Below are positions 25,884-62,789 of a stretch of 64,000 nucleotides of DNA, one piece after another; within the stretch, counting starts at the first letter, position 1, and the number at the start of each line of letters is the position of its first letter. This DNA is from Holothuria scabra (Eukaryota; Echinodermata; Holothuroidea; Aspidochirotida; Holothuriidae). The DNA lies in assembly GCA_037179385.1 (NCBI GenBank), contig CM074189.1:20223020-20287019 (forward strand), given 5' to 3'. The notes below the pieces were generated by a model. That model searched no databases and was not told where the DNA came from. It saw only the letters and a program-made list of their open reading frames with translations. Position numbers and translations under genes: made by a program.

Positions 25884-26016
25884 CTAAATGGGCGTGGAAT
25901 CTCTACTTTGTCCTGTGTGAAGTGATCTGATGTAGTTTGGGTCAAAACATTTTCTCCTGCGAATTTCATCACGTCTGTGTACCAGGACTAAAATCTCCTC
26001 AAAATTGCTCTTCCCC
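25884..26016 (-). CDS. Candidate last exon of the NLR gene
   Basis: Acceptor TTTTTCTATTTTCAG at 26017-26018, open frame of 43 codons (contains NFEEILVLVHRRDEIRRRKC and PNYIRSLHTGQSRDSTPI), stop TAG at 25884-25886, AATAAA 38 nt beyond. This acceptor needs an incoming phase of 2, but the preceding UPA exon offers phase 1 (CAAG|GTAGCA) or phase 0 (TTTGG|GTAACC). An alternative acceptor a few bases in (GGGGAAG|AGC) has phase 0 and would pair with the latter. A small exon between them may also be missing. No known domain; the segment is charged and probably helical, and there is no CARD or Death domain. Confidence 0.45.
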
Positions 26017-29000
26017 CTGAAAATAGAAAAAAGTCTCGGAGTTATAGAGAATTATTCGCTAAAACTGAACTTCATGGACAAGTTGACATTAAAACGAATT
26101 TTAAACCAGAAAAATCGGTCCAGGTTTGGTGGATTTATAGAAAATTTTTAGCACCCAAACCGTAACAGAACAATGGTCAGTTCTTGTCTTTCGTGCAGGG
26201 TATTATTTGCCCCGACTAAGCAAGCAACTCTTGTGGTTAAATGACGTCAAAAAATCGGCCAGTTCATTCCCTGATCGGCCAGTTTGTTCCGCCGTTCTTC
26301 AAGTGGACAGATTTTCTCATGTCTGTATTTTGACTTGCATGTAGGAGAACTTTTGTTGACCACAATTCACCCACAATGAACATTTAAAATTTTAATTTCT
26401 TTGTCTTAGTGACTAATTTTATGCAACTTATAAATGACTTTCAATATCAAATGATTTCTATAATTCCTGGAAATGAACATCCCTTTCAAAAATTATTCCA
26501 AAAGTATTCAATACTTTTTGTAGGTAAAAGTTTTGATCTTATCAGATGAAAGCATAAGAAAAGGATTTCAACAACAACGATAAATTTATAATGTTTGATG
26601 TATGAAATCACTGCTGAATACTAGAAAAAGGAAGGGTTACCCAAATCTTTGGACGATTCAGAAGACGCAGACCTCTGCTACCTTGAAATGCTCTGAATAT
26701 AAAAATGGGCATTGCTGGTCCAGGGGCATCCTTCCGGAACACAAATTTCAGGGACTCTTCTCTATCCATATCAATGGACTCAAAAGGAATTTCCTTCAGA
26801 GATTGAGAAATGAGAAGACAAAAACGGTAGTAAAAATCACAGACAAGCACATTTATGCTTTAAGGGGTTATGTCTTGAACACTAGGGACCTAAAATACCC
26901 ACCTTTATTCTTGAGACTATGCCCTTAATGTAGAACACGATACCAGTGCATATTGTCATTTTTGTACTATCAACTTCAACGTTTTCACAATTCACCTCTT
27001 CTGATTCAGATGGCTCTTTTAATCTGTCATTATTCAAGATTGATAATGTACTGAATGGAGTATGTCCATTAAAATTATACCACATCCCTTATACTATGTA
27101 TAGCAGCTAGGTGTAAGATAAACACCAACTTGAACACCAATTTTGAAAAAGTTGGTGCCTGCTTAAGGCAAGAAAAACTACTAAAAGATATGTTATCTAT
27201 CTTCTGATGAGCTATGCCAAACCATTCATAGTTTGCAAAGAAACGCAAGAAAAAAATGCAAAACAATTATTCTGTTACACCTTACTAAAGAGGATGAGGT
27301 AAACTTACTGGCATTCAAGAAACCACACATTAATCCCACATTGCCCCAAAACAAAATGTCTAGTAGTCTTAACATAACAGACTCCATGCTACATGACTCC
27401 TTTAACGTACTCTTTTTGAGAGGTGTGGTGTGTATGACTTTCATAACTTTTCTTTTCCACTCTGTTTCTGCAACTACTTGAATTCCCCCCTGAGATCAGC
27501 TGTAGAACAGTTGAGAAAAACATGGAGTCTGCTACCTCGGTGTTCCCAGCATTCCAAGAAATAAAATTCCAGGATATTTCCATGATTTTTCCACGATGAA
27601 GAATTTTACTTATTAACCAGTCCAGACAAAAGAACAGTTATATCAGTACTGAACTACATTAACTGAAAGCTGTACTTTTTACACCAGTTTATAGGAATGT
27701 TAACACTTAGTATAGCCAATCAATTTTTCAGCATTTGTCTTTGGCTAACCAAATTCCATGATTTTTCCAGGATTTTAAGCAATTTTCCTCAAATTCCATG
27801 ACTTTTCCAGGATTTTAAGCATCTTTTTGAAATTCCCTGACTTTTCCAGGTAAGGCTGGGAACCCTGGTCGACCACTCCGTCCAATACTAAAATGCTGAT
27901 AGCTATAACACAAGTGTGCGGGGCATGGGAACAACAGTGAGGGATTTATGTGTAAGTACAAATTGAATTGTTTACGAAAAACGTTTGTAATAGAAACAAT
28001 AATTTCCAATTTTCACATTAAAGATTCCATCAATTGCTTGGTAGACTGAGTCGCAAATATGCCCCGATTGGAGCACAAGGGTTAATCTAAAGTACGTATC
28101 TGCACCACGAGGCTGTGCACACAGGCAGAGACAGTGGCATCAGCTTTGTGGTAAACACACTCCACAGGCTTATTTTAACCCTTTACCCTTGTTTGGGTCG
28201 TTTTGGACCCATGCGGAGACCGTGCCTGTCACCCATCTTTACTGTTTCACGTGGAGCTCGAAACTGCAAGTAGCTACCCGAGAATTCGGCCACAACAACG
28301 AAAGGGACAATTGTTTCAGGTCACGGTGTCACGGTGTCACTGGCCTATGGAAGCTGATGTGGGGCGTGCTACGTCGGCTTTTCCGCCCACTCCCGAGGCG
28401 TGCAAATATGCCCAATTGGAGCACAACGGTAAAGGGTTAATGCAGTTTTAGTCTATGCCACAGCTACACTTGCAAGATTTCACATTCAATAGAAGTCACT
28501 GTTTCAAATGCTTTATGAATTAGAAATTTGAAACAGACAAACTACTGAATAAGGTAACAGTTGATTCAAAGAAACAACTAACAACAAATGAAACAAATTT
28601 AATTGGTGGAATATTATGGAAGGGTATTACAGTATTTGTACGAGAACTACCAAAGGATAAACTTTTTCCCAAATGGCCTACAGTTTAAAGTCCATACAGT
28701 CCATACCTTAGTATCTGGTTCATCTTGAAATTGCTTCCATTTACTAGGTACAGTTTTCTGAAGCAAAAATTTCAATGGTGTTTCACCTTCCTTAAAGTAC
28801 ACAAAAGACTTTTTGGAAGCAACAACCAGTTGCTTGTTGGCACAAAGTTTCTGAAATTCAAGAATGAACAAGGTTGATAACAATCATTCTCCAAATACAC
28901 AGGACAAATGTGAAGATTTTCAGGTTACCTGCACTTTGTGGGGAATAAATTATTATGACTTTTCCATGACAACCCCAGGAACAAAATAAGGATCTTCATG

Positions 29001-32000
29001 ACCTTCCTCTAGATTTTTTCACCAAATTTACTTCTGTGACAGAAATTTTAGAAGTACAGCGAATATAAAATTTTAAGAGACAATATATTTTGATATTACG
29101 AGTGAAAAAGCAATGAAACTTTAAGAAATTTTTCATGCATGGCTTTTTCAGGACTTCACACACTTTCCTAAAATTTTAAACTTTTCCATGTCATCAAAAT
29201 AATTCTCAAAAATTAAGAACTTTTCACAGTTTTTCCAGGAATGAGGTAAATGAATGTGTAATGCTTACCTGTCCACCACCTGGTACATCAAGATAGTATC
29301 CAACCTCTGCAACATAAAAGGAATCTGCAAGATTCAAATGTTTACCTCCTGCATAGACTTGTAACCGTTTGCCATATACAACTCCACCATCAACGTAATA
29401 CTGCACCCAACAGAAGCTGTCTAATGATATTATACATGTTGTATCAGTCAGTTCATACGGCTGATCAATCATCTCTTTCCAAATTGGTTTGGTCCCTGTA
29501 AAAACAGGAATCAATTGTTAAGAACAGTACCCCAATAGATCAACAAATGTTACAATACCACCAAGCAATAAAAGTTGCTCTAAATTGAATTAGTGATAAA
29601 ATGCTGGAAACATAAAATAACAAAACTTCAAACTAAACTAATATACCTTCCTTGTGATGGCTCATAACTATTTTTGCTATGGGTTCCACTCCTTTCTTCA
29701 ACTGGAAGCAGTGGGGAAGACTGAGTTTAACCTGACGCTGAAAAGTGAGATTGTCTGGCAGGAGTTCAACAATAACTGATGAGTTAATTGAAAAGTCTGT
29801 TGAAGTCTTGTCTGAGGAGTCTGGTGGAATAATCCTTATACATATATCACACATATCTATGCCTTCTGGAAGTGCATTTGGTGGAATGTCTAGTCGAACA
29901 CCTGTATTAGGAATTTCAATGAAGCCACTGGTGGTAGAAGCCATGCCTCTTGCTTCCAGAGTTGTCCAGTCTATGGAATATTATAAAAATAAAATAACAT
30001 AAAATATGTGAGTATTAACTTAAAGTATGTCACACTAAAAGTAAGTAGTAGAACTTGTGAAACAAAGCATTACTTATTAGGTTGCAATGGTCAAAACAAG
30101 TAACAAATGAATGGAAATGTTCTGGCAGTCTGAATGGAGTACAGAAATGAATTAAAAAGTAAGTTACTTCTTAAACTGATGCTTTATAGCTCCATTTCAA
30201 ATTGCATAAATGATCAACCTTACCAGTGTTTGTATCTGAACTAGTCTTGGTTGCTGCAGATGTCTCAGTTTCAACCTGTTAACATTAAAGAAAATTATTT
30301 CTAATTCATTACTAAAAACACATGGAATATTACAGTCAGTATCAAGCATCGAACATGACCTGTAATGGACACTTTGATTTTGGTTTTAAACTTCAGTATC
30401 CCCCTGTGGACTAGGAGATTATGCCCATGGTGTTTCCCGCATGTCATAAGAGGAGACTAAAGGAAAATCAAATTTGAATTTGAATCATACTTGAAAATAA
30501 ATTTAAACTTTGTACTTTTAAATGAGTTAACTGACTGTTTACTGAAAACTTCAGTAAAATGACCAATGATTTTACTTTATTTTACCACTGGTTTGCTATC
30601 ATCGAGCACTCCATATTTATTAATTATGACACCCAAAACATAACAAGAATCATTGATCTGTTGTCATGTGTGAATTGAAAATATTTACTATTTCTAGTGG
30701 ATTAAAAAGGTGTCATGCTAACTGACATTTTCCAGTTGTAGTCGATTCACTGGTTTGTTTTGAATTCCCTACTCCATTGCTTATGCTGAGCACTTAGCGC
30801 AATTGCAGTAAGGTATTAAATGTAAAGTCCTTGGTATGACCTTACTAAGAGTCAAAATTCAGACCTCCCAGCTGGAAGTCAGATGCTCTAAAAGTGTTAT
30901 GGTGGCATGCAATTAACTGGATTGAACAATCACATTTATGAAACAAACATTTTGATTGACAAACAATTGATTCTACTTGATAGAAATAACTTCAGCATTA
31001 GCTGCTTCATAAGAGTGATTTGTTGTTCTTTTGGACTTAGTATGTGATTAAGTATGTGATCCAAATGGTAAAAAGTTCGTAACAAATTGACATTTTGTTG
31101 TAAAATATGAAATTATTTACCATCCATGTTTCTTTACTTGTGCTGAATGTCTGAGCCTTGTGAGAACCAGTTTTCCAAATTACTGAAGGGTAGAAACATT
31201 TGAAGGAAAGTATTGAAGAAAAAATCAAACACATATTCCACCATCTTGCTTTGAGCCTTGAAGAGCGCATATTACAAAAAAAATAAAACACTCTTGCAGT
31301 TGACTTTTCTTTCTAATAGATTAACTTATCCTTGCGCATTGCAATTGCTACAGGTCAAAACAAACAATGTGATAAATTCTGCAATAGTATCCAACAACTC
31401 ACAATAATTAAAGGTTTGCATGCAATGGGGGTACCTTCCCCTTTTTGTCAATGTCATGACTGTTTCAAAGGCAGACTCATAGTAGATTGACAGGACAATA
31501 TGAAATGCCATTAGCTCTTATTGTTTGAATGCAATGAAAACCATTCAGTTCGACAACTGGAAGCACAGCTAGTATGTAAAGTTCAGCTTAAAGGCTGAAT
31601 AAGCAATTATGTGTCACTATTAACCAATTCTGTGTCATTACAAAGAAGTTTGGAGATCCAGTATAATTTAGGATAGCTATGTAAATGCTGACATCCACAT
31701 ATTCACAGAAAACTAGAATGACACCTATAAATTCTTAACAAGTTTAAAGTAAAAGGGCACACAATTACTGACAGAACCCAAAAACAAAATAATTGAAAAT
31801 TACTTGTTAATGATTTCCATATAGACGAATCTGATTAGCACTTGTTTTTAGTGACTGTAGATAGCCAATAGTGGGATCCATCAGCCTTTAATCATCTTCA
31901 TTTATTGTCTACCTGAATTTGAAATCCTCATATTCAGTGAAGTTGAGAAAATCAAGAAACACTTTAGTGTAGAACCATCCATGGAACAGGTAAGGAAGGA

Positions 32001-35000
32001 AATTTAAAGATTAAAGGTGATGGACCCCAGTAACGGCCGACTAAAATCAGACCATCACAATCTGTCCGGATTCGTCTATAGTGGTAGCTTTAGAAAAAAT
32101 AGAAATGTTTCATGAATAAAACAGCTAAATGAAGGGTATTCTTATTATCTAATGTAACTCTTTAGTGTCATTATCAGATAAATATCCATGCAGCTGGCAA
32201 TTTGTAATAGCCCATATACCAGGTAGCATTCCCATATAGGTCCCTTATAAGACTCATTTGTTGGACCATATGGGGCCACATATGATTTTCCACCCAGGTT
32301 TTAAAAGGAGCCCAAATGGGCTAGTCCACAGGACCCATATGATCTATTATGGGACCCATAAGAATTAACCCATATGAGGCCCAAACAGGTTTCCTACTTG
32401 AGGAACAGGACATGATCTTACAATATTGATGCATTATACAAAAATTTTAAGATGTGTAACAAGAATATACTGGCATTTTTGACAAAAATAAATGAAACAA
32501 TTTTTGTATTGTAAAAACTCTTTTTGCAAGAATTGACAAGGTCAGTGTGATTTTTAGGCCATGATGAAACGATTCCAACAATCAGAACATCATTTTGCAG
32601 TTTTAATCAATGTTTGACACCTAAATTTTATATAGAAGATAATTCATAATCCTATTTGCATCTCACCTTTTTTGTCATCTTCTCGTAAAATGGTGACTGT
32701 CTTCTTATCTAGAAATGGTGGGTCACTTGGTGCGGTAAAGCTAATTAAGTAGGAAGACATCAGGTATACAAGTAATGCTGGTTTCAGACAAACTAAGCAA
32801 ATTTTATTTTACACAGTAAGACACATATTCTCCAAACAAACATGTTTAGCAATATCCACTGCCTTATACTATGTGGTCATATTGGTTACAGAATAAACAA
32901 ACTATGAAGAACTATCTTGGAAGTGGCTCACTGATGTAAATTCAAATGTCTGAAAATACACTTTTCTAAAGAATGGATAATTAATATTTAGCTAAGTCAA
33001 ACACATGCCTCAATTAAATGACTTTGGTTGGAAATGCTGTACATGCTTGTTTAAGCTGAATCTATACATCTGAAAATGTACCATTCTAAAAGAGTGGATA
33101 ATTAACTCTAGGCTCGGTCTCGTGCATGCCTCAATTAAATGACTTCGGTGGGAAATACTTACTGTGCTTCTCTAATCAAAGGACATTTTGAAATGAATTT
33201 CAAAACATTTTTGCTATCTTCCTTGGTAAGAGCCCCACCATGATCAATGATTTCAATCTCTTCAAGGGTATCTAAGACTTCCATCATAATACCAGAGGAG
33301 AACTCAAAAGCATTGCTTGATGCAGACACCACAACATCAGAGAGAACAAGTTTTCTGCTTATGACCTGCAGAAAAAATAGAGGTGTTTTCAATTAATTCA
33401 TTGATTACTTAACTGATTTAGTAAAATTTCTGTTTTGTGGACTTTCATTGCATAGAGAATTTGGTACAAAATTTGTATTAAAAATGTATGAACAGTGCTG
33501 GTTAACAATCACAAGGTACTTTGCAGACAGAGTAAAATTCACAAAAGACTAAGAAAATATTTCCCTTACTGAAATGAAAACAGCTTTTCTGTACATAGTG
33601 GTCAATAGAAATAGTGACAGGACAGTTCAAAAGGATTGACATGTATTAATAAACAAACACACTTACCCCACATTTGGAAGCAAGTTCCAGCATTCTCAGT
33701 TTTGCTTGTTGCAGCAATCGACTATCTTTAGGAAGTACAGTTATTACCATATTGCAGACTTCACTCACAGCCTCTTGCATACCTAGTCCACTTTCACCAT
33801 TGTATTCAGCAAAGATCAGAAATATACAGTCCATTATATGGTCTGGGAATCCACCTTCCTTTGAACGATGCCTTCGTAAAAGATATTTTATGATCAGATG
33901 ACAGGAAGCAGGATGAAGAGCTGATGTAAATCGTAACACAAAATGAAGATCAGAAGGGTCAATTAAATCCAACTGCTTATTTAAAAATCTCTCCATATAA
34001 TGTTCACCCCTGTAACTTGAAATTGTGTGAGCAAGGTGATTAGCTGCAAACCATTCTTGGATTATCTTATGCAAAAATCTGACTTGTAAAGGAACATGTT
34101 TAGCAGTTGTGCCACCAGCCTCTGTTGTTTCACTTCCTGATGTACTGTCACCCGCTTCTGATCTTGTGTCTGAGTCTCTCTTAGAACTTACACCTGAGGA
34201 TGCAGCTGATTTCGACTTGGCCCTGACAGCAGATGGAAGTCTTGATACTGCTCCTGGACTTGAAGTGGTAGGATGTTTTGCCTCTTCTTCTACATTTACA
34301 TCTCTATTCTTAGCAGCAGCTATTTCAGATAAATCTTGGTCCATGTTTTCCATTAGAGCAGCTCCACTAGTCTCTTCCACTACAAGGACCCCAGCATCCA
34401 TCCATTCCTTGCTGTTACTTAGTGTTAATTCGATGAAATCTTTCTGCCAAAACAACTGTTGATGTCCTATACAGAGTCCACTGTATGCGAGTTCTTCCAG
34501 TGTTGTTCCTTCAGTCTTTACATACCCCAGGGTAAGTTCTTCTGTTTTTCTTACTAAAGTCCCAAATGGACACAAGGTGTCTACCATGTTCTTAACAAAG
34601 GGGGCCACTCTATTAAACCTACCCATCCCTGATTTCAGCATGCTTTCTATGTTATGTACAACCAGAACAAAAAGCAGAGGTATGCTACAGAGATCGTGGA
34701 TGAATGGATTATCTTTAATGGCCTTCTTAACTTTCATTTGTGTTTTAAGATTTTTAGGAAACACTTTCTGAATGTAAGAATTTTTGTCATCATCACTGAA
34801 TTTTGCTATTTTCAGTGTTGGAAATTTTAGCATAGGCTTTGCATAATCTGAACGAGATGAAATGACAACTTTACAAGTTGGATATTTGATTTTTGACATT
34901 ATTTTGGTGATTTCAGATTGATCTCTATCTGTTGATCTCTCATTGTACTCTTCCAACCCATCTAATAAAAGACACTTTGACGTGGAACGATTTGTGAGGA

Positions 35001-38000
35001 AGATCTCAATATCATGGATAGACAATCTCTCATCTTCAGGAAAATAGAAATCTTTAACTGATTGCACTATTGACTTTTGTTCCACAAACTTCAGAGGTAA
35101 AAGGATAAGCACTTCAATGTCCTTAAATTTTCCCTGACACCAGTCATATGCCAGTTGAGACATTAGCATTGTTTTACCAGACCCTGGGTCTCCTTCAAGT
35201 ACTAATCGGATTTCAGATTTTAAATTTTCATGAGTAAATACTGCTGTGTAATGCATTTTCTTCATAACTTCCTCAGAGGAAGCTGGCATTTCCTTAGTCT
35301 TTCTTTCAATCAAAAGCAGACTGCAGCTTATAAACAACTCTGTTGATTTCCATCTGCAAGACTTCTTCCAGGGTACAGGAGTCATGGTTTCATACCAGCT
35401 AAAAATCTTCTTCTTAAGACCTTGGATAAATAAGGCTTTCTTCCCTGTGTAGAACAAGCAAAATAAATATTGGCAATGATACTTCTATCTTAATTCTAGC
35501 TCATGCATTCATATAAAACTACCTAATCATTTTATACAAGCCTGGAACATTAGCAGCTAATGACTTCGATACAGCTAGTAGATATTACCTTTCAAAAGAT
35601 GGACATTTGCTTTAATTTATTCTTTTATTACATCACAACAAGACTGTTGTTGAGTAAGATAAATTTGTGGTCATTTGGAACTAATCATTATACAGTATAC
35701 ATTGAAACTTTTCCAAACAGTATTAATTACAAATAACCAACAACAACTGGGTGTAGCAGTGTTGTATCTGGCCACAGGAAAAATATGTTTAATGTTTCAT
35801 AGCAACAGAGGAATTGCTTAGTTAGATAAGATTTAACTACACACCAACACGAGTGTGTGAGGAATTGGAACTATGCATTTAAGAGTTAAATGATACAACA
35901 GGAATGAAAAATATTGTTTTGGTGATCATGCAGGTAGAGTACTGTGCATAAAAATGAAATATGAGACAAACTTACCATATCATGACATACAGTACTGGTA
36001 CGGTAAACTATTGTTGTGTAGTCATTCAAATATTTATAGCAGAGATTTATGTTAATAATATCCTATCCTGACACAAGTTTAGGCATACATTTTATGCGCA
36101 AAAATTGAAATGGTTTAAACACTTTCAACTTCTAAAATGATACTGCTATAGTAAGTGATAAATAGAATCATTGGAGAGCATATTAAAACTATTGTATAAA
36201 ACTGAAACCACTGCATGAAGCACAAGCATTATACAGCTAGATGGAGGTCAGTCCTATAAGCAACAGCTATTTACAACAAAACTAGTTTTCCTACTGTATA
36301 ACTTTCTTTGTTCAACATCACCCCCTATAATCTCTTGTAGTCTCATTGAAACCTGTTGGTAAACCAGAATGCAAAAATGCATTGAGGTTTCCATGATACA
36401 TATATGCTCTTTTCAATAAAATGCTACATTTCTTGTAACAACTGGTGACCCAAAGTGACCTTTGACTCCACCTGTAAGTAACTGGTTTTTCTTTTAACCA
36501 AAACACTTCTATATTCAAAAAGCCAAATTTCATACTGTGTGTTAAGATATTCTGCAAACAAGGTTTTCAGAGTTTGATGCCAGGTGATACCAGATGACCA
36601 CTGACCTCCACCAAAAACAACAGGTACAGTACTTTCAACTCACCATAACACATCCACATACTAATTAGGAAATCCATCCCAGTTTCCTACCTTGAGATAT
36701 CCCATTTTGACAAGGTTTTCAAAGTTTGACCGATCATAACCCCAGATGTCCTTTCACCTCCACAAAAAAACCTTATACAGACCATCTTCTCACCATAGCT
36801 CATCCTTATACTAATTATGAAATCCATCCATGTTTCGTACCTTGAGCTATCCTAAACAAGGTTTTCTGAGTTTGACCCCCTATGACCCCAAATGACCTTA
36901 GACCTCTACCAAAATCAAAAGGGTTCTTCCTTTAATACATCATAATGCATCAACATATCAAGTTTGAAATCAATCCAAGCTTCCTACCTTGAGAAATTGT
37001 GTTAAAAACGTTTTCAGGATTTGTCCCTTTCTGACCCCAAATGACCTTTGACCTCCACCAAAATAAATAGGGTTCTTTTTTACATCATAACACATCAACA
37101 TATCAAGTTAGAAATGAATCCAAAATTCCTACCATGAAATATCGTGTAAACAAGGATTTCAGGGTTTGACCCCATGTGACCCCAAATGACCTTTGACCTC
37201 CACCAAAATAAATTGGGTTCTTCCTTACATCATAAGGCATCAACGTATCAAGTTTGAAATGAATCCAAGTTTCCTGCTATGAGATTTAGTGTAAACAAGG
37301 ATTTCGGGGTTTGACCCCACATGACCCAAATAGCCTTTGACCTCCACCAAAATAAATCGGGTTCTTTCTTACATCATAACGCATCAACATATCAAGTTTG
37401 AAATTAATCCAAGTTTCCTACCATGAGATATCGTGTAAACAAGGATTTCGGGGTTTGACCTCGCGTGACCCCAAATGACCCTTGACCTGCACCAAAATCA
37501 ATAGGGTTCTTCCTTACATCATAATGCATGAACATATTAAGTTTGAAATTAATCAAAGTTCCCTACCATGAGATATCGTGTAAACAAGGATTTTGGGTTT
37601 TGACCCCCTGTGACCCCAGATGACCTTTGACCTCCACCAAAATATATAGGGTTGTTCCTCTCAGTATGGGGTATCTGTGTACCAAGTTTGAGAACTGTCA
37701 GATCTTCCCTTCTTAAGATATCGTGTAAACAAGCAAAGTGTAACAAACACACACACACACACACACACACACCCACACACCCACACACCCATACACACAT
37801 ACACACGCACATACACACATACATACACACGCACGCCATCATGAATGCATAGGTTTCTCTTTTCATCGAAACCAGAAACACAACATTTGATGGTTGAGGT
37901 CTAACATCCTTCAAAGAACTTCACTTAAACTGTTAATAAACCTCTGAATCACAAGACATTGGGCAAACATCTCGTTCAGACCAGCTGTGGTCTTTGTGGG

Positions 38001-44000: not shown

Positions 44001-47000
44001 AGACTTTTTCCAAATTATTGAACAGCAGCTCTCTGTTCAGTTCACAAAGAATTCAACAAATACTCACAGCTCATATATGGTGTTGTATAAAGTCTGGTGA
44101 CTTAGGACTAGCAGCATGTGTCATTTACAGGTACAGCATTTGTTTTTCCAAAACACTATGAGAAACAGTATGAGTAAAGCATCAAAGTGCTTTAAAACTA
44201 GCCCAATACAAGATGCAAGCCAATAATTAAGCAGTGTATCACTGGGTGTAGAAACTTCATCTTTCTAGTTAGGAAATTTCAATACATGTATGCCCCATTC
44301 ACCTGTCAGTTTAGTTTTCTCTGCTTGCAATCAACAAACTTTTAAAAGATATGTTGAAACGTGATGCTCCTTGAAATTATACATTTACTATGATGGTGCA
44401 ACCAGTCCTGATTTTCCTCATGGGAGCTGATGGACTTCTGAAAATTTTTGTGGGGGTGATGAATTTCTAATGTGACAGGTCTACTGAACTGAAGCAGAGC
44501 ACCACCATCCATTGGTGTTGAGAATAATGAAAATGAGAAATGAAAATGTTTGAAATTTGTGACCATCAGACAGTTCCAAATAAATTTCTCAGGCCTGTGA
44601 GTTAGAGTTAGATAGAGTTTAACGGCCCAGTTTCCACCCTATTGGTTCAAGTCGAGCCGGCCACGACCTTTTGTCCAGTTGTTGCTCACTGGATTGTTTT
44701 ACCTACTCCATTGCTTATGTGGAGCATCATGCACAACGGCAGTAGGTTCCTTTTTTAGAGTCCTCAGGCCTGTGAGCGGGTCCCAAATGGTTATTTTGAG
44801 TGTCCACTTGTTATAAAAAGTTCACTCCAATATAATTATGATTCAGAACTTGCAAAATGATTACACATTTTACCAGATTTTTGTACCACTAAAATTTTCT
44901 GGGTATTAGGTTTTAGGCACTTCAAAAGCCTGAGAATTCATCTGTCTGCCCATGTTGCAGTATCTGGCAATTATAAACATCCTAGATATTTTGCCTGAGC
45001 TAAATATTCTGCCATTTCAAGCAGTGTCCTACACAGGAATATTACAGGGTTCCAAGCATTCCAAGAACATAAAATTCACTGGGAACCCTGATTAAGAGAG
45101 GCTACAGAAAAAGTGTTTCACATACAGTAAGCAGTCCAAATGTGTCCCTAATTTTAAATTCCATGGAAATGTTACCAGTCTGAGAACTTTTTGCAGTGAT
45201 AGGCCTACACAACGAGATTACAGGAAAGGATACTTTCCAGAACTTGAAAACTGCATTAAATTTTGATGTTTAAAACTTGTATTTGAAATGGTTCCTTTTT
45301 CAAGAGCAAAAATTACTCTGAAAAACCTGGCAGTACCTGTTGTGCACTGATGTAGCATATTGTGTTTTACATATGACACTCTGTGATGGCTTTCTTGGCC
45401 TTTTGGAGTTGTGACTGAAGACTAAAAACTTTTACCTAGTTACACATGACTGTCCTTTCAAATTGATCTGAGGTTATCCCCCACTGAAGATGCTCACATA
45501 ACCCAAAGTTCCAAAAGCCAAGCTGGTGTCACCTCCACCCTATCCATTTGGAAAACGTCCGCTAAGGGGGAGGTTCGGAAGAGGGGTAAATCCCTCTGCT
45601 TTTCATTTTTTTTTTTTTGAATTACAAAAGTATCATGAATTCATTTTATCGTCTTTATCATTCATATCATTTTTCTAAATGATATCATATTCTAATTTTT
45701 ATCTTTATTTATAAATAATTTTTGGTTTTCAATGTCACATTTTTTTTCATCCCAGATAGCCATAAGATGGGGGTGTTTGAGTCTGGACAAACTTCCATGG
45801 GAACTCCAGCCAACAAGCCTAGCCCCATGTAGTTTTGGTACTGATTATACTGTGCAATCACTTACCTCTGGTCTTGTGGTAAATTTCTGTCAAGTAAAGA
45901 CAAAGTGTATAAATTCTCAGGCTTGCAAATGCATCTCTTATTCTTTCAACATTGTATGGATGCAAAATGCCTTTCTCTTCAAAAGCAGCCAGGAGATTTT
46001 CTGAAGGCCTGTCACTGTTAAGGATTGCATCTGTCTGGTCCTTGGATATCCTAAAGAAGTTTGCCAGCTTTGTACATTCATCTGTCTGAAGAGTTGATGC
46101 CAGCTTCTCTTTGAAATGACTGTAAGTGAACACCTCAGCCTGCAGGAAAAGAATCACAAAAGGGTCACACAATGTGAATATTGAAAAGCATAAAGTTGTC
46201 ACAAAGAAAGATGAGAAGAGAAAATAGAGTGTACAGTACTTGATGTACGTTATAAGTTACTACACAAGCCACTCAAATTTAGAAGAGTAAACATGTTGTA
46301 CACAAAATTGCATAGATAATTGACATGTAAGTATTGAGTCACCAGGGTTGTCACCACGCCGGTCGGGACTTACCAGCACTGGACATTGCTGACCAGTACA
46401 ACACCTAAAATGCAAGGCTTCCGACCAGCACAAAAATGTTAAAAAATAATGGAATTGACATTAGCCTATAGTTGAAAAATTCAATGGGTCAAAAATGAGA
46501 TGGATTCCATGGGGGTAGGGTGAGATACAAATATTGAGTCAGATGTTTAGCCGGCACTCAAATTGGGCTGGTGACAACCGTGTCAGTCAGGCATGCATGT
46601 TCACCTTCAGACAGCACTGTATTTCACAAGAACCCTGTGGACAGTGCTTATTGTTTGTAAACCTTTTACCAGCAAGTTGCAATACCCATGTCAAGCAAAT
46701 TGAAGACCATTTTTATAATATTCTACAGTAGCTTGCTTAGGATGTAACATTTTACCACAAAAATTAACCTGACAAATAAACATCCTGAATGGAACTATGT
46801 TAAAGAGGGTTGTATGGTGATATTATCTTTAAAATACCAATAAATCTTTGTTTAAAATAATGCTCCACAAATGGTCAAAAAGGCCCCAAAAATGCAACAA
46901 AGATTTGAGTATCAGAGTCTTTCAGAGACAAACATTATAAAAAGCAGACCCTACTCATTTTTCCTTATTAATAATGCTATAATAAAGTAGGTATCGAATA

Positions 47001-50000: not shown

Positions 50001-53000
50001 GGCCTCACATTTACGTGTGGGTTTTGGTACCTGTACAATAGGGCTACGTGATTTAAAAATGTAAGACTGAGACATTTTCTCCAAATTATGCATGGAGGTG
50101 GCAGTACGTGCTACATTATGTGGGTACAGTAATGTATGCATTATTAAATGTACATAACAATTAAGTCGATGTTTCCACTTTCATTTAAGGTTTCATACTT
50201 GGAGCCATTTTGAAAATTAACAATCATGAGGTCCTGCCAGTTACAATTAACACCTCCCTTCTGTATATACTGTAGTCTGGAACACCTAAATCCGTCAGCT
50301 CTGTCTCCCCTCAATTAAACTACAGAATTTAAAAAAAAACAAAGTTTACACTCAGTAAGTTTTCAACCTTTTTAGATCACGCCAAAAAGGTGCTCATTTA
50401 CACTGCAAACAGTAGGCTGTATGGTCTTTCTACATCAACATCACAGTTAAATTTGAAATTTTCCTAATTTAAATGACAATATTTTTGCCCAATATCCAAG
50501 ATTAACCAGACCATTTTAAACTTTTACTGAATAACATTGACACTCCTCAGGTATACTGGTTGTTTCCTGAATTTTGGAAAAAATAAGAACAAAAACTGAA
50601 CATTTTTTCCTTTGTTTTTCAAAATAGCTAGGCCTTTCTGTATCAAGGGCCTACAAGTAATATACCCTAAATATATTCACTTGTCACATAAATTTCCATA
50701 TAACAATTTCATTGTTACTGTTTAATTTACTTTTTTATAACTCACAACATACTGTAAATAAAACAGTTGATCAAGGGAATACTAGCAAAAGACCGCCAAA
50801 TAAATCTTAAATTCAACTCTTTCCCTAAGAGCCCTTCGATGAACTGTGTAACGTTTAACTACCAGGATTTCTGTCAGAAAAGGGTAAGAGGGGATTTTAT
50901 CCCTCCTTTCAACAAGAAGGTGGGTAAAATCCCCCCTTTTTATTTCCATAAAAATGAAAAGAAAATATCATAATCATGTCTCTTGACTTAAAAGGAGGAC
51001 ACTTTTTTTGCAGCATTGCTTGAACTTACATAAATAAATGGATTTTAATTAAACCCCTCCAGATTGCATCTTACAGGGGTCTTAAAGGGAGCTAACTGTT
51101 TCCCTAAAACCACTTGTAAATTTACACTTAGCCTAGGGCAGCACCAATTTGGACTTGACGTTTAGCAATAATTAATTCCTCCTATTTTGAGTTTCTGCCA
51201 GAATCCCTGACTATGTACCATACATATGAATTTTTGGTAATCAGAATAATAATTTGGCTCTAATTGGGTTTACGTACATAGTGAGGTTAGGGTTAGAGGT
51301 ACAAATAGTTTGTACAGTATGCATAAGGTTAGGATAACATACCCATAGTAGTAGCCTAGGCTTATGGTTACAGTACAAGCTGTATTATTAGTAAAAGGGT
51401 TAGAGTTAGAGATACAGTACATACATTCAGGGCATAGGTATGCCACTTCGAGGTATGGAAACCCAATTGGTACCAAAATTTCACTCTTTCACCCATCTTC
51501 TGATCCCCCTGTCAACTTTGCAATCTTTTTACACAGTTCAACAGTTTTCATCCCCTTTTTAAAAGAAGGAATATCTTAAAGTCACCTTCAAATTTGAAAT
51601 TTCATGAAATAATCTCCATCTCAAATAAAAAACTCCTAGTTTTATAATCCATCCTGCATTCAGCACAATTTGATTTAGACCAGTAGACTGCTTTCTGAAT
51701 TTCACATATCAAAACAACATTACTACTTGTACAAAATTGGACATATTGCAAAGTGTACATTTACACAGTAAGCAGTATGGACATTTCTATTTTACAGATA
51801 ATTTTTTCAAATAATCATTTTGAATCATACATTTTTGCACCCAAATTCCTCCCAAAAACCAAAAACATTTCCAAAACTTGCTTTTTTGCTCCTTCAAAAG
51901 TTTCTTTATATTGATTTTGTAAGTACTGACTGCCTCCTGAATTCTGGAAGATCCAAACAAATTGGCTAGTTTTCCATATTTTTCAAAATAAGCCAATTTG
52001 TATAGGGAATTACTGTGTAAAAACTATCAGTTTTCACCTGCCACCATTTTTGGGGATTTTAGCATTAGGAATTCCATTTTTATCTCTTTAATTCTTCTGA
52101 TTTCAACCAAAATATTGTTACATTCTTGTTATTTGACCTCTATACTATTCTCCGTGACCAATCTTTTAACAATTTACCTCCCTCTGAATTTCTGGTAATC
52201 AAAATAAATTTGACACTTTTCCCCATTTTTTAGTCCATCATCAATTTTGCAATAATTCACAGTTAAGTCAATGCAGTTTCTAATGCCCTCTTCCTAAAAT
52301 TGGCCTCTAGAAATCACTTCCAAATTTCATTAAATCATCTCTCCCGGACAAAACCATCACAAAATCCCTGTTATTTAGTCTGTCACGAGTTCAACAATAC
52401 CTACATTTCAAGTATTGACTGTCTCCTGACATTTTCTAGTTCAAAAATAAACAGGTGTTTTTCACCAAACCTACCTGTTAATCGTAACATACTGTACACA
52501 GTACATTGTATAGGCTAGTATCAATAGCTACTGTATACTTACCATATCATACACCTTCACTTGTCCTGTCCATCCATTCCCCGTTACAATCCTGTCACCT
52601 TTGTCAGATATTCTGATTCTAGAAACATCATTTTCAACCTCAACAGTGAGAAAACTACAATTATTTTCACTTAAAAGAGAATAAAATGCAACTGTGTTAT
52701 GTTCACCTTCTTTGTAATAGATGGAGTCATACCATACTACAGCTGCTATACCTAACGTATTCATATTCACTCCTACACTGTCTACATACCACGTGACACT
52801 ATCTGTTGGTTTTGTCAATTCCGACAAAATTCTTCCATTTTTTTCTTCAAATATCAACGATTTGTGGATACTTCCTTCCTTACGTTCAACTACACAGACA
52901 AATATTCTGTCAGCTATAACCGTCATATCGTAAGGGAAGTAGCCATCTTGAATTCCATGTAAGATGATTGATTTGATTTCATTTAAGTCTATCACATCAT

Positions 53001-53484
53001 AGACAGTTATTTTATTTGATTTAAAACCGATAAATATTTCTGTTTCTCTGACAGACAGACATCTAATCTCATCAGATAAGTCGCCATGTTTTACTAATTT
53101 TATTTTACGAGATTTTATGACTCGATCTTGAATTAAATCAATAACTTCTAATTTATCACCAAGACCAGATAATATCGTGGTATCACTACCAGGATAAAAT
53201 GAAACAATTCGTCCCCAATGAGTTCCATATTCGTCTTCATATTTGTCAAATTCCTTTGAATAAATTATTTTTGGTTTATTTCTAGAATCATAATATCTGA
53301 CATTTCTGTATACGTCTATGTATGTTCGGTGTGTGTTCACGTTGCCGCCAGTTACAGCGATATTTCCATTCAAACTGAGAGATAGATCCCAAAGTCGCCA
53401 GCCATCTTGTTTCGTGTATCTACTGTGTTGAATGCAATAGCGGCTGTGTAGACAAACCGAAAAGAGAAATTTTAGGCCATGCAT
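25884..53484 (-). CDS. NLR-type gene: propeller-DED-DED-NACHT-ZU5-UPA
   Basis: Overall model of the main gene, read right to left. Exons: 53484-52543, 46139-45866, 42164-41850, 35444-33667, 33365-33163, 32740-32667, 31182-31121, 30275-30224, 29970-29647, 29495-29269, 28850-28707, 26793-26682 and probably 26016-25884. Every internal junction down to 26793 has AG/GT sites and matching phase (0,1,1,0,2,1,0,1,1,0,0), which would be very unlikely by chance. The product is about 1,500 residues. Predicted role: cytosolic nucleotide-binding innate immune or cell-death receptor, in which NACHT oligomerisation is coupled to DED adaptors or caspases. ZU5-UPA after NACHT parallels NLRP1. Unresolved: the true 5' end and the last splice. 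Confidence 0.75.
26682..26793 (-). CDS. NLR exon: end of the UPA domain
   Basis: Acceptor after a long pyrimidine tract (TTTCTCAATCTCTGAAG); phase 0 matches the upstream exon. It encodes EIPFESIDMDREESLKFVFR and KDAPGPAMPIFIFRAFQ, resembling the last beta-strands of UPA domains (a strand LxFxL followed by a hydrophobic strand). The donor is uncertain: CAAG|GTAGCA gives phase 1; reading on to TTTGG|GTAACC adds GSRGLRLLNRPKIW and gives phase 0. The frame stays open to a stop at 26608. Confidence 0.6.
28175..28440. mobile_element. piggyBac-like MITE flanked by TTAA
   Basis: TTAA (28175-28178) is followed by CCCTTTACCCTTGT; at the other end ACAACGGTAAAGGG is followed by TTAA (28437-28440). The 14-bp terminal inverted repeat (13 of 14 match) starting CCC and the TTAA target duplication are the hallmarks of piggyBac-group elements. 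The 258-bp body is GC-richer than its intron surroundings and non-coding. A second partial end with the same subterminal sequence (GCAAATATGCCCCGATTGGA...GGTTAA) lies at about 28055-28086. Confidence 0.75.
28707..28850 (-). CDS. NLR exon: middle of the UPA domain
   Basis: 144 nt, phase 0 at both ends; acceptor TTGAATTTCAG, donor ACTAAG|GTATGG. It encodes KLCANKQLVVASKKSFVYF and GETPLKFLLQKTVPSKWKQF, matching the middle of UPA domains, where a short strand-turn-strand is followed by L-x-F/I-L-L and a conserved W. Confidence 0.75.
29269..29495 (-). CDS. NLR exon: ZU5/UPA junction and start of UPA
   Basis: 227 nt; acceptor CCTGTTTTTACAG (phase 1), donor GGACAG|GTAAGC (phase 0). It encodes KPIWKEMIDQPYELTDTTC, IISLDSFCWVQYYV, KRLQVYAGGKHLNLADSFYV and VGYYLDVPGGGQ. 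In self-cleaving relatives (PIDD1, NLRP1, CARD8) the strand before the W carries HFS and the chain breaks between F and S. The aligned residues here are SFC (29410-29418), so the His is lost and the Ser is a Cys. Either the domain is not processed, as in UNC5 and ankyrins, or a Cys acts instead. Confidence 0.8.
29647..29970 (-). CDS. NLR exon: ZU5 domain
   Basis: 324 nt; acceptor TATTCCATAG (phase 1), donor GAAG|GTATAT (phase 1). It encodes a typical ZU5 domain: SGFIEIPNTGVRLDIPPNAL (family: G-G-x-L-x-[IL]-P-x-[ST]-G-V-x-L-x-I-P-P-x-A-[IL]-P), SVIVELLPDNLTFQRQVKL (family: SPVVxCGPxGLxFxxPVxL) and SLPHCFQL. ZU5 domains occur in ZO-1, UNC5 receptors, ankyrins, PIDD1 and FIIND proteins, nearly always followed by UPA, as here. 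Confidence 0.88.
30224..30275 (-). CDS. NLR small linker exon, Ser/Thr-rich
   Basis: 52 nt, entering at phase 0 (acceptor TTAACAG) and leaving at phase 1 (donor ACTG|GTAAGG). It encodes VETETSAATKTSSDTNT, a flexible Ser/Thr-rich linker just before the ZU5 domain. It is supported mainly by its phase, which fits both neighbours. Such a short exon could be skipped only with a frame change. Confidence 0.6.
30400..30540 (+). repeat. CCCCTGTGG...GGCGACTAAA interspersed repeat, copy 1
   Basis: Shares with 57420-57555 an ordered set of blocks: CCCCCTGTGG, ATGCCC(A/G)TGGT, CGCATGT, CAAGAGG(C/A)GACTAAAGG, TGAAAATAAATTTAA and GAGTTGACTGAC. It may be the conserved core of a SINE family; no tRNA head is visible. 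Confidence 0.5.
30735..30925 (-). mobile_element. tRNA-derived SINE, copy 7
   Basis: Reverse, diverged copy: GAATTCCCTACTCCATTGCT, TATGCTGAGCACTTAGCGCA, GTCCTTGGTATGACCTTACT and, at the head end, CAGACCTCCCAGCTGGAAGT and CAGATGCTCTAAAAGTG. The 3' end with the (CTAA)n tail is missing. It lies inside an NLR intron, opposite... in the same (minus) orientation as the gene. Confidence 0.6.
31121..31182 (-). CDS. NLR small linker exon
   Basis: 62 nt; acceptor TTTCTACCCTTCAG (phase 1), donor GGATG|GTAAAT (phase 0). It encodes IWKTGSHKAQTFSTSKETWM. No domain. It converts phase 1 from the previous exon into the phase 0 needed by the next, which is the main reason to believe it. Confidence 0.6.
31183..32666. 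other. NLR intron with MITE
   Basis: Intron with no exon seen. It holds a TATAGACGAAT MITE (31820-32080) and, at about 32215-32395, a cluster of CCATAT and ATATGG words (CCCATATAGGTCCCTTATAA, GGACCATATGGGGCCACATA, GGACCCATATGATCTATTAT, ACCCATATGAGGCCC) that is nearly self-complementary in places. Confidence 0.5.
31820..32080. mobile_element. TATAGACGAAT MITE, copy 1
   Basis: 261 bp with long imperfect inverted ends: TATAGACGAATCTGATTAGC on the left, and TCCGGATTCGTCTATA on the right. Subterminal blocks also mirror (GATCCATCAGCC versus GGTGATGGACC). A second copy lies at 43049-43311. Non-coding. The target duplication is unclear because the ends start with TATA. Confidence 0.7.
32667..32740 (-). 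CDS. NLR small exon after the superhelix
   Basis: 74 nt; acceptor TACTTAATTAG (phase 2), donor AAAAAG|GTGAGA (phase 1). It encodes FTAPSDPPFLDKKTVTILRE followed by DDKK. It continues the LRR-like stretch of the exon before (pattern CPLIREA...LDKKTVTIL). Both phases fit their neighbours. Confidence 0.65.
32951..33160. repeat. Tandem duplication beside a splice donor
   Basis: Two copies about 120 bp apart share CTGAAAAT(A/G), GGATAATTAA, CATGCCTCAATTAAATGACT and T(T/C)GG(T)TGGAAAT (32951-33040 and 33071-33160). The second ends at the donor of exon 33163-33365; the first ends in a donor-less equivalent. It is a local duplication of intron 5' sequence. Confidence 0.65.
33163..33365 (-). CDS. NLR exon: short LRR-like segment
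   Basis: 203 nt; acceptor TTTTTTCTGCAG (phase 0), donor GCACA|GTAAGT (phase 2). It encodes VISRKLVLSDVVVSASSNA, MMEVLDTLEEIEIIDHGGAL and LKFISKCPLIREA. The spacing of leucines and the CPL turn resemble one or two atypical leucine-rich repeats after an NLR superhelix; there is no long LRR array. A diverged copy of its donor region lies just downstream in the intron (32951-33040). Confidence 0.72.
33667..35444 (-). CDS. NLR exon: NACHT NTPase and C-terminal superhelix
   Basis: One exon of 1,778 nt (592 codons), acceptor TTGCTTGTTCTACACAG (phase 1), donor TGTGGG|GTAAGT (phase 0). Walker A GDPGSGKT (35170-35193), Walker B LLLDGLEEYNE (about 34940-34971), sensor-like KVVISSRSD, winged-helix-side LCSIPLLFVLV and the NLR motif FLHKIIQEWFAANHL near 34040-34080. 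NACHT ATPases switch by nucleotide exchange and assemble into rings. Between winged helix and superhelix is an insert of about 70 residues rich in Ser, Thr, Ala and charge (34093-34305), probably disordered. The intact long frame and invariant motifs show it is under constraint. Confidence 0.93.
35445..36339. other. NLR intron upstream of the NACHT exon
   Basis: AT-rich intron with no exon, RNA gene or repeat recognised. Confidence 0.5.
36340..37875 (+). repeat. AGGTCA tandem array A with (CA)n end
   Basis: About nine units of roughly 146 bp. Each has TGACCCCAAATGACCTTTGA followed by CCTCCACCAAAA, then AATAGGGTTCTTCCTTACAT and AAGTTTCCTACC. On the opposite strand this reads AGGTCA-A-AGGTCA-TTTG-GGGTCA. 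Right-hand units are most alike; left ones are diverged. It ends in a (CA)n tract (37748-37830), CATCATGAATGCATAG and a small hairpin (GGTTTC...GAAACC, 37852-37873). The 5' part (CCAGAATGCAAAAATGCATT, 36363) is shared with array B. Confidence 0.88.
37876..38379. other. NLR intron between arrays A and B, left part
   Basis: Contains poly-G (GGGGGGGGGAGG, 37998) and a short CCATA/CCGTA repeat (about 38069-38112). The plus-strand frame 38127-38330 is hydrophobic but has no recognisable signal. Confidence 0.45.
38380..38940 (+). pseudogene. Degenerate CCHC zinc-knuckle ORF1 of a retroelement
   Basis: Stop- and frameshift-broken coding relic. Three knuckle-like groups follow in order: WCSKEGHKVKSRHT, CLQLGHDNADCPNEV and a third starting CNL with GDISAAC then SYAAR. 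Upstream pieces (ARSMYNLKFTSDVHIL, LTVTPYDPSVAV, RYGDGELNVKRQSVWG) fit the RNA-binding part of ORF1 proteins that precede such knuckles in some LINEs. Only fragments remain; no adjoining reverse transcriptase was seen. Confidence 0.45.
39165..40895 (+). repeat. AGGTCA tandem array B with (CA)n end
   Basis: Same element type as array A: a 5' block CCAGAATGCAAAAATGCATT (39171), then about nine units of roughly 145 bp (clear from 39540) with TGACCCCAGATGACCTTTGA and CCTCCACCAAAAACAATAGG, GAAATCTATCCAAGTTTCCT and ATCTTGAGATAT. It ends with ACAAACACACACAAACACCA, CATCATGATTGCATAG and a hairpin (GGTTTT...GAAACC, 40872-40893). A (CAGA/CAGG)n stretch lies at about 39505-39522. The CA tract is much shorter than in A. 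Confidence 0.88.
40896..41481. other. NLR intron
   Basis: AT-rich intron with no recognised feature up to the duplicated exon fragment. Confidence 0.5.
41482..41745 (-). repeat. Duplicated DED-exon fragment grown into a minisatellite
   Basis: AGAGCTCCAACATCAAATAG...CATCTCATCCACAGCTAGCA GCAAGTAGAGTCC (41482-41542) matches the second DED exon at 41968-42028. From its end, a unit of about 30 bp (AGTCCTGGATTGTGACTGTT and variants such as TTCTGGAATGTGACTGTTTA) repeats six or so times to 41745. The unit derives from exon sequence AGTCCTGGATTCTGACTGTT (42028). No open frame remains. Confidence 0.75.
41850..42164 (-). CDS. NLR exon: second DED-like domain
   Basis: 315 nt; acceptor CTAATTTCTAG (phase 1), donor GAAG|GTAATT (phase 1). 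It encodes YGRFLATLSAHLTSSIPADL, GLSLLLALDEMGVIKISEVG and LQMELVQAVAKIHEYQS. The L-L-L-A-L-x-E-M-G-V-I hallmark and its place directly after another DED-like exon mark it as a second death-effector-like domain; a helical segment VEEAEKLLQKEELTAE leads to the NACHT exon. The joined codon across the intron reads GCA (Ala). A fragment of this exon is duplicated at 41482-41555. Confidence 0.78.
43049..43311. mobile_element. TATAGACGAAT MITE, copy 2
   Basis: 263 bp, inverted relative to copy 1: left end AAAGACGAATCCGAACAGAA, right end TCGGATTCGTCTATA, interior GTGATGGTCTGATTTCAGTC and GGCTGATGGACCCCACTAAT. The ends are a little more diverged than in copy 1. Confidence 0.7.
44590..44765 (-). mobile_element. 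tRNA-derived SINE, copy 8 (headless)
   Basis: Reverse copy: GTTAGATAGAGTTTAACGGC (tail side), TATTGGTTCAAGTCGAGCCG, GTTGTTGCTCACTGGATTGT, CTCCATTGCTTATGTGGAGC and CACAACGGCAGTAGGTTCCT. It stops at TTTTTTAGAGTCCT, so the tRNA-like head is missing (5' truncation). Confidence 0.7.
45866..46139 (-). CDS. NLR exon: first DED-like domain
   Basis: 274 nt; acceptor TTTTCCTGCAG (phase 0), donor CAGAG|GTAAGT (phase 1). It encodes AEVFTYSHFKEKLASTLQTD, LANFFRISKDQTDAILNSD and LLAAFEEKGILHPYNVERIR. The L-L-x-x-F-E-E-K-G-I-L and N-V-E-R-I-R pattern is that of helices of death-effector domains (family: L-L-x-x-L-E-x-x-x-L-[IL]-x-x-x-N-x-x-x-L). Tandem DEDs occur in FLIP and caspase-8 and mediate chain assembly with FADD-like adaptors. 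Confidence 0.8.
46140..52542. other. 6.4-kb first intron of the NLR model
   Basis: No exon found in 6.4 kb. The minus-strand frame at 49410-49622 is made of TGACCTC-type words from the array family and is not credited. Other content: (GTCT)n at about 48244-48273, an inverted pair around 50888-50937 (GGGGATTTTATCCC and GGGTAAAATCCCC) and GGTTAGGGTTAGAG words at 51285-51410. An alternative first exon for the DED part cannot be excluded here. Confidence 0.5.
52543..53484 (-). CDS. NLR 5' exon: beta-propeller
   Basis: 942 nt from ATG (53484) to donor TATG|GTAAGT (phase 0). It encodes a WD40/NHL-like propeller with six or so repeats of W-x-x-D or V-x-D strands: DGWRLWDLSLSLNGNIAVTG, GDKLEVIDLIQDRVIKSRKI, IRCLSVRETEIFIGFKSNKI and VSRIRISDKGDRIVTGNGWT, ending GQVKVYDM. 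Such propellers usually sit at the C-terminus of NLR or TRIM-like proteins. Here phase and order place it N-terminal to the DEDs. The start is uncertain: GTTTGTCTACACAG at 53444-53445 could be an acceptor, making this an internal exon with more sequence to the right. Confidence 0.68.
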
Positions 53485-61264: not shown

Positions 61265-62789
61265 GATTCCTTGCCATCAAATACCTTACCTGCTTTCAAA
61301 TTGACAGTGCTTGATAGATTTTTCTTTACATTTTAGGCACAGAATTTTCACAATTTTACCCCTGGTGACCTCAAATATGACCTTTGACCTCTACCAAAAA
61401 CAATAGGCTTCTTTCTCTCAACATGACAAATCTATATACCAAGTATGAAAAGTATCTGTTACTCTTATCTGGAGATATCGTGTTTACAAGCCATTTTCGA
61501 AGTTTTGGCAATTTTACCGCTGGTGACCTCAAATGACCTTTGACCTCTACCAAAAGCAATACGCTTCTTTCTCTCAACATGAAAAATCTATACACCAAGT
61601 ATGAAAATTGTCGGGCAATTCTATCTGAAGATATCATGTTTACAAGCCATTTTCGGTGTTTTCACATTTTTACCGCTGATGACCTCAAATGACCTTTGAC
61701 CTCAGCCAAAAACAATAGACTTCTTCCTCTAAACATGACAAACCTATATACCAAGCATGAGAAGTGTCGGTCACTCCTATCTGAAGAAATCATGTTTAAA
61801 AGCCATTTTCGGGATTTTCCCAATTTTACCGCTGGTGACCTCAAATGAACTTTGAATTCTACCAAAAGCACTAGGCTTCTTTCTCTCGACATGACAAATC
61901 TATATACCAAATATGAAGAGTATCTGTCACTCCTTTTTGAAGATATCGTGTTTACAAGCAATTTTCAGTGTTTTGGCAATTTTACCGCTGGTGACCTCAA
62001 ATGACCCTTGACCTCTACCAAAAACAATAGGGTTCTTCTTCTCAACATGACGAATCTATATACCAAGTATGAAAAGTGTCGGTCACTCCTATCTGAAGAT
62101 ATCGTGTTTACAAGCCATTTTCAAAGTTTTTGCAATTTTACTGCTATTGACCTCAAATGACCTTTGACCTCTACCAAAAACAATAGGCTCTTCTCTCTCA
62201 ACATGAAAAATCTATATACCAAATATGAAGAGTGTTGGTCTCTCCTAACTGAAGATATCATGTTTACAAGCCATTTTCAGTGTTTTCGCAATTTTACCGC
62301 TGGTGACCTCAAATGACCTTTGACCTCTACCAAAAACAATAGGGTTCTTCCTCTCAACATGACAAATCTGTATACCAAGTATGAAAATTGTCGGGCAATC
62401 CTATCTGAAGATATCGTGTTTACAAGCCATTTTCTGCGTTTTCGCAATTTTACCGCTGATGACCTCAAATGACCTTTGACCTCTACCAAAAACAATAGGG
62501 TTTTTCTTCTCAACATGACAAATCTATATACCAAGTATGAAAAGTGTCCATCACTCCTATCTGAAGATATCGTGTTTACAAGCTATTTTTGAAATTGACG
62601 CAATTTTACCGCTGGTGACCTCAAATGACCTTTGACCTATACCAAAAACAATAGGGTTCTTCCTCTCAACATGATAAATCTATATACCAAATATGAAAAG
62701 TGTCGGACATTCCTATCTTAAGATATCGTGTTTACAAGCAAGTGTCATAAACACACACACACATACACACACACATGCACACACACACA

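Follow-up and report, generated by a model that had tools for sequence, protein, structure and literature searches.

Predicted sea cucumber NLR-type receptor joining a propeller, tandem DED-like domains, NACHT and an UNC5-type ZU5-UPA tail that may self-cleave

Introduction

NLRP1 and CARD8 are well-known inflammasome sensors that act by cleaving themselves and releasing a C-terminal fragment. PIDD1 has LRR and no NACHT, and the UNC5 netrin receptors are membrane receptors without NACHT or DED. Here, we analyzed a gene in a stretch of 64,000 nucleotides of the sea cucumber Holothuria scabra (assembly GCA_037179385.1, contig CM074189.1, positions 20,223,020-20,287,019 of the forward strand; hereafter the window). 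Its predicted product contains, in order, an NHL-like propeller, two DED-like domains, NACHT, a short LRR-like stretch, ZU5, and UPA. As a whole, the locus is best explained as encoding an NLR-type receptor that signals through DEDs and carries a FIIND-like tail that may cleave itself, a reading to which we assign a probability of roughly 50%.

The window protein resembles NLRP1 in that ZU5-UPA lies behind NACHT, and it resembles CARD8 in having Phe at the self-cleavage position and His at the places of His-252 and His-270 (PMC3210808). It differs from both in having no CARD after UPA, Cys in place of Ser, no listed Pfam FIIND match, and a propeller and DEDs in front. Two consecutive DED-like domains are shared with FLIP and caspase-8, but here the pair is part of an NLR, flanked by the propeller and NACHT. 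Relatives of the window protein share the ZU5-UPA-Death layout of PIDD1, and two copies carry HFS; the window gene, unlike PIDD1, has no Death domain. From the UNC5 receptors it differs at the cleavage position, where UNC5B has Leu-Gly.

NACHT with ZU5 has been reported in cnidarians (PMC8260672) and, in a sponge study, as an architecture common to early-diverging animals (PMC12909245). These cnidarian, sponge, and ctenophore proteins and the Death/DED-NACHT NLRs of Chiridota heheva (PMC8913654) each cover part of the window order, but the available parts of these papers give no propeller-DED-DED front combined with ZU5-UPA. PMC13133943 mentions a DED-NACHT combination in Hydra; the A. japonicus receptor that is that paper's own subject joins NACHT to Ig. 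For TRADD-N proteins of marine invertebrates, ZU5/FIIND self-cleavage has been predicted (PMC8195603); these DED-TRADD-N expansions likewise consist of lineage-specific DED proteins, and some of them carry ZU5-UPA or FIIND, but they are TRADD-N based, and the NACHT order of the window is not described in the available part of that paper. An earlier reading of the window (the sequence-only reading) had taken the architecture to be undescribed. This still applies to the whole order, no description of which was found in the literature searched, a body that leaves most subscription-journal papers outside its scope. It does not apply to NACHT-ZU5 or Death/DED-NACHT, each of which is published, and many relatives are public under automatic names. 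The parts are already known, and the full order is apparently undescribed.

Gene structure

Thirteen minus-strand exons, from window position 53,484 to 25,999, joined in phase into one protein of 1,521 residues. All 12 introns of the model were GT-AG, and every phase was compatible. We are highly confident of the domain order and of the single-gene structure. The features are listed below in window coordinates; relatives are designated P0001 to P0095.

52543..53484, minus strand: E1, N-terminal propeller, beginning at ATG 53484 or, more likely, entered via an acceptor just before 53443
45866..46139, minus strand: E2, first DED-like domain (DED1)
41850..42164, minus strand: E3, second DED-like domain (DED2)
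33667..35444, minus strand: E4, NACHT NTPase with helical and winged-helix regions behind it (Pfam NACHT, 8.5e-16)
35170..35193, minus strand: Walker A, GDPGSGKT, read in the sequence
34945..34971, minus strand: Walker B, LLLDGLEEY, read in the sequence
33163..33365, minus strand: E5, LRR-like stretch, in phase
32667..32740, minus strand: E6, end of the LRR-like stretch (P0001 tblastn, 61%)
31121..31182, minus strand: E6b, linker exon (P0002 tblastn, 60%; phase compatible)
30224..30275, minus strand: E7, provisional linker exon (phase compatible; by-eye likeness to the P0001 linker)
29647..29970, minus strand: E8, ZU5 domain (Pfam ZU5, 5.1e-10; family profile against UNC5B, 1.4e-13)
29654..29659, minus strand: His-His pair (SHH), candidate activator of the cleavage-type site, invariant in 14/14
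29269..29495, minus strand: E9, end of ZU5, cleavage-type site, and start of UPA (gene model; UNC5B alignment)
29407..29415, minus strand: Phe-Cys-Trp at the position of the CARD8 Phe-296/Ser-297 cut (UNC5B alignment and spacing)
28707..28850, minus strand: E10, UPA, spanned by the UNC5B profile match
26641..26793, minus strand: E11, end of UPA (85% identity to P0001)
25999..26016, minus strand: E12, provisional last coding exon, GEEQF and stop, in-phase continuation of E11

Five relatives yielded tblastn results against the window. Matches to P0001 covered E1-E6 and E8-E11 and none of the short exons E6b, E7, and E12, the first of which was matched by P0002. The assignments of E7 and E12 are provisional, being based on phase and on by-eye resemblance to P0001. 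The two linker exons (31182-31121 and 30275-30224) sit where P0001 has additional residues between E6, in the LRR-like part, and ZU5. The sequence-only reading had joined twelve exons in phase into about 1,500 residues; the phase-consistent join held, and the count rose to 13 with the two short linker exons. Its gene end at 25,884 was not borne out. The last exon, entered at 26016 in phase 0, reads GEEQF-stop, which places the coding end at 25,999; an extension of E12 to 25,884 was rejected because a frame that stays open that far does not fit the phase of E11. The C-terminus of P0001 is 11 residues longer than that of the window protein. A further exon candidate (27023-26903) was discarded as out of phase between E10 and E11.

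At the 5' end, an in-frame ATG was present at 53,484. Because an acceptor directly precedes 53,443 and relatives begin with different short leaders, a short first exon upstream of E1 is likely. An upstream scan for this exon gave weak candidates only (e.g., 60080-60055), none of them convincing. The intron between E1 and E2 measures 6.4 kb, and the gene spans ~27 kb.

Propeller, DED-like domains, and NACHT

A Pfam search of the window pieces recovered NACHT and ZU5 at the values listed above and a single weak WD40 repeat (0.014), but neither DED nor UPA. The propeller, DED, and UPA identities are assignments from family profiles and predicted folds. The N-terminal domain was predicted with good confidence to adopt an NHL-type propeller fold, in agreement with the N-terminal propeller of the sequence-only reading. 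The propeller profile showed weak internal repeats (best P 0.0012), and the predicted fold was used instead.

The two DEDs of the sequence-only reading proved DED-like at the level of the family and weaker in the window protein itself. Among aligned members, Pfam DED was found in 8/13 for DED1 (best 0.0084) and in 4/12 for DED2 (best 1.3e-5); P0013 reached 9e-7. The best PDB sequence match of the DED1 profile was viral FLIP (E 0.0049, chain residues 109-181).

NACHT membership was clear, with the domain and Walker A/B present in the window protein. The family profile matched chains of NLRC4, NAIP, and NLRP3; for rat NLRP1 (7crw), the best stretch listed in the family profile search was the NACHT stretch only. 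The LRR-like part, of ~87 residues (E5-E6 stretch 83% identical to P0001), had no LRR family match in Pfam among the window pieces.

The ZU5-UPA tail and its cleavage-type site

The family profile matched UNC5B across both ZU5 and UPA, and UNC5B is the nearest solved relative of the tail, which is thus an UNC5-type ZU5-UPA. Assignment of the whole module draws on Pfam ZU5, on this profile match, and on the predicted fold of a relative, P0074, rather than of the window tail. The P0074 model (808 residues) had a mean predicted local distance difference test (pLDDT) score of 66, with residues 261-427 below 50. The NLRP1 FIIND structure was absent among the 50 matches listed for this fold; the list was filled by propellers, so that the absence is no argument against a match. 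Pfam UPA was found in 3/14 members, the window protein not among them, and no Pfam FIIND was listed for the window tail (up to E 10) or for the 14 members (up to E 1).

No Death domain was found in the window gene model, nor by tblastn of P0001-P0027 across the window. The nearest relatives, P0001 and P0002, and P0003 are also without one, whereas Death was found in 9/15 relatives of one alignment (A4). The best PDB match of the family Death part was RIPK1 (9e-14), and the PIDD Death domain was among the matches (7.8e-6). There is no C-terminal CARD either, the window model ending a few residues past UPA. The sequence-only reading had equated ZU5-UPA after NACHT with the NLRP1 FIIND layout. 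The position behind NACHT and a Phe-Cys at the CARD8 SF/S site agree with this, but the tail is UNC5-type, without FIIND match or CARD. The layout is not that of NLRP1, since the window gene has no CARD and many relatives end in Death, which the window gene lacks.

At the CARD8 SF/S self-cleavage position, the window reads S-F-C(-W). In the UNC5B alignment, the Phe of S-F-C-W falls on chain residue 137 (Leu) and the His of PHC on residue 84, a difference of 53. This is also the spacing of Leu-677 and His-624, the residues equated with CARD8 Phe-296 and His-252 (PMC3210808). Chain residue 137 would be 677 if numbering starts at 541, the first residue aligned with the P0074 fold. The alignment and the spacing of 53 together place Phe-Cys of the window at the Phe-Ser position of CARD8. 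The first His of the invariant His-His pair lies 18 residues past the PHC His, as CARD8 His-270 does past His-252 (numbers from PMC3210808), and the corresponding His of rat NLRP1 has been taken as catalytic (PMC8081665).

We then counted site residues in the 90 ZU5-UPA copies that were ungapped in both the Phe and the nucleophile column. Phe was present in 66/90, and in all 66 it was followed by Ser or Cys and then Trp. His-His occurred in 64/66 copies with Phe and in 1/24 copies without it. After deduplication at 80%, with copies gapped at any of the four columns left out (29 copies), the figures were 23/23 for Phe-Ser/Cys copies and 1/6 for the others. The Trp that follows the site was equally conserved, as were other residues of the core. 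The residue after Phe was mostly Cys in H. leucospilota; in A. japonicus, NACHT-bearing proteins with Phe had Ser there, and NACHT-less ones (e.g., P0028, P0057, and P0074) had Cys. Two A. japonicus proteins, P0040 and P0044, read HFSW at the site, followed by a Death domain, and are good first candidates for a cleavage assay; the HFS motif is given for PIDD and Nup98 (PMC3210808).

Relatives in sea cucumbers

Compared with a ten-exon version of the window protein, P0001 (H. leucospilota, 1,399 residues) was 76% identical over 91%, P0002 (H. leucospilota) 74% over 79%, and P0003 (source label lgn) 46% over 98%. P0001 shares the propeller-DED1 junction of the window (...VYDMAEVFTYSHFKEK). P0003, with 1,480 residues, occupies ~4.4 kb of a 6,196-base contig. 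That contig would appear to be cDNA-like because it leaves too little room for introns like those of the 27-kb layout.

We applied our own hidden Markov models to 96 proteins, P0001-P0095 plus that of the window (isoforms and close paralogs are included, so that the figures are not gene counts). Propeller-DED1-DED2-NACHT-ZU5UPA-Death was found in 15/96 and the same order without Death in 9/96, the window protein included; the remainder showed other orders, truncations, or NACHT alone. The recurrence of the order in many sea cucumber proteins supports the earlier view of one receptor rather than several genes. The relatives listed by our searches were all from H. leucospilota or A. japonicus, save P0003 and five weak rows (P0025-P0027, P0094, and P0095) that matched the NACHT profile only. 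The searches were seeded by shared words and scored a limited number of candidates, so that distant relatives in other echinoderms are possible. Many A. japonicus rows share one contig size (34,621,101 bases).

A tree of the NACHT region was built from 50 rows, after proteins without exactly one strong NACHT or with a NACHT start before residue 150 and then near-copies (56 to 50) had been dropped. The window protein grouped with P0001 and P0002 (SH-like approximate likelihood-ratio test [SH-aLRT] 99). One branch (100) separated all 19 H. leucospilota rows, P0003, and the window from all 29 A. japonicus rows; therefore, most duplications in this sample probably postdate the split of the two lineages. 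In hand-picked sets of nine members (Holothuria side) and ten (A. japonicus), DED2 was the most conserved domain, with mean identities of 0.64 and 0.83, respectively, followed by NACHT (0.55 and 0.79), DED1 (0.47 and 0.73), propeller (0.45 and 0.67), and ZU5-UPA (0.43 and 0.60). A conserved DED2-NACHT core with variable outer modules would suit shared output and varied sensing, DED1 being a poor fit on the Holothuria side. The window gene is one member of a large family of sea cucumber receptors that is apparently undescribed.

Several members depart from the common order. P0028, P0057, and P0074 (A. japonicus) are NACHT-less propeller-DED-ZU5UPA-Death proteins whose cleavage-type site reads GFCW; in P0028 and P0057 this unit occurs in tandem copies. 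They amount to the outer receptor frame minus its NTPase. P0006 (H. leucospilota) has five SH3 stretches between NLR core and ZU5-UPA; P0020 and P0022 are likewise listed with SH3. P0023 (H. leucospilota) is a propeller-DED-kinase-DED prediction, which we do not take as evidence of a real fusion.

Neighboring elements

At window 13193-11905 on the minus strand are remnants of a protein kinase gene that resemble the C-terminal half of P0023, with one open exon (~12174-11905; Pkinase, 2e-5) and broken pieces upstream. They adjoin non-LTR-type retrotransposon pieces on the same strand (~13657-16963), with a reverse transcriptase (RVT_1, 2.3e-15) across several open frames. Three arrays with units of 145-156 bases and common TGACCTTTGACCTC words were present at 36818-37659, 39526-40719, and 61345-62739, two of them within the E3-E4 intron.

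Discussion

In the reading that we favor, the window gene product would be an intracellular NLR-type sensor. ATP-dependent assembly of NACHT would cluster the tandem DEDs, which would then seed DED filaments and recruit caspase-8/FADD-like partners; we regard DED output as probable. Sensing, and keeping the core inactive, would fall to the outer modules (propeller and ZU5-UPA), which are more diverged. The tail would be a FIIND-like switch, with family members cut between Phe and Ser or Cys and UPA (UPA-Death in relatives) remaining bound but detachable after the cut. Freed UPA-Death would parallel the UPA-CARD of NLRP1. In the window protein, the nucleophile would be Cys and the freed piece UPA alone, leaving the DEDs, rather than a C-terminal CARD or Death domain, to provide the output. 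With no Death domain in the gene and none found elsewhere in the window, this freed UPA could regulate but would not signal like UPA-CARD. Self-cleavage of the window protein is proposed only tentatively.

Several observations weigh against this reading. UNC5-type tails, the nearest by sequence, are not known to self-cleave. The candidate nucleophile is Cys, not the Ser shown necessary in CARD8 and NLRP1, and 32 residues separate it from the first His of the pair, compared with 27 in CARD8. Association of Phe-Ser/Cys with His-His (Fisher 5e-5, 29 copies) was rejected as correlated evolution, since on the tree, from which copies shorter than 110 letters were additionally left out, each trait changed only about twice; the co-occurrence is best taken as an old split, not repeated co-evolution. 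Neither DED1 (E2) nor DED2 (E3) of the window protein had a Pfam DED match, the DED2 profile ranked synaptotagmin (0.02) above FLIP (0.083) among PDB sequences, and DED1 was barely more conserved than the propeller in both sets. Finally, no transcript of the window gene was seen.

A serious contender, rated somewhat short of even chances, keeps the same receptor but makes the tail an uncut, UNC5-like scaffold that locks NACHT or binds partners, with Phe-Cys/Ser-Trp and His-His serving packing. This would agree with UNC5B as the nearest solved relative, the lack of a listed FIIND in the 14 members, and the equal conservation of Trp and other core residues. Against it, UNC5B itself carries Leu-Gly at the site, only Ser and Cys, both nucleophiles, follow Phe in 66/66 copies, and the HFS of two copies is a motif given for PIDD and Nup98 (PMC3210808). 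It is improbable that the gene is a decaying or decoy member that may only titrate active relatives: the window has no Death domain (tblastn with P0001-P0027) and the stop comes 11 residues earlier than in P0001, but 1,521 codons are open, the Walker motifs are intact, and the nearest relatives P0001 and P0002 also lack Death, as does P0003. Least credible by far is a gene-model chimera with propeller or ZU5-UPA exons from adjoining genes, for despite the 6.4-kb E1-E2 intron, the lack of an H. scabra transcript, and the variable family predictions seen in P0023 (propeller-DED joined to kinase), the same joins occur in P0001, in tens of predicted proteins from two sea cucumber species, and on the 6.2-kb contig of P0003, and E1 extends to the final strand of the propeller as predicted and continues into DED1 without a break in phase.

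The weight of the finding depends on whether the Phe-Cys/Ser site truly cuts, and the Ser and Cys forms of the site that occur naturally in two lineages of sea cucumbers provide a ready test system. If the self-cleaving receptor is real, NLR sensing and DED signaling would be linked within one protein. The same switch position would also recur in a separately built family wired to DEDs and Death, which would mean that the self-cleavage trick arose more than once. More speculatively, and with greater doubt, sea cucumbers may have evolved NLRP1-like self-cutting receptors separately from vertebrates, with two outputs (an internal tandem-DED arm and a detachable UPA or UPA-Death) and with Phe-Ser or Phe-Cys according to lineage; the branch of the window gene would then be DED-only, with a Cys-type self-cleaving brake.
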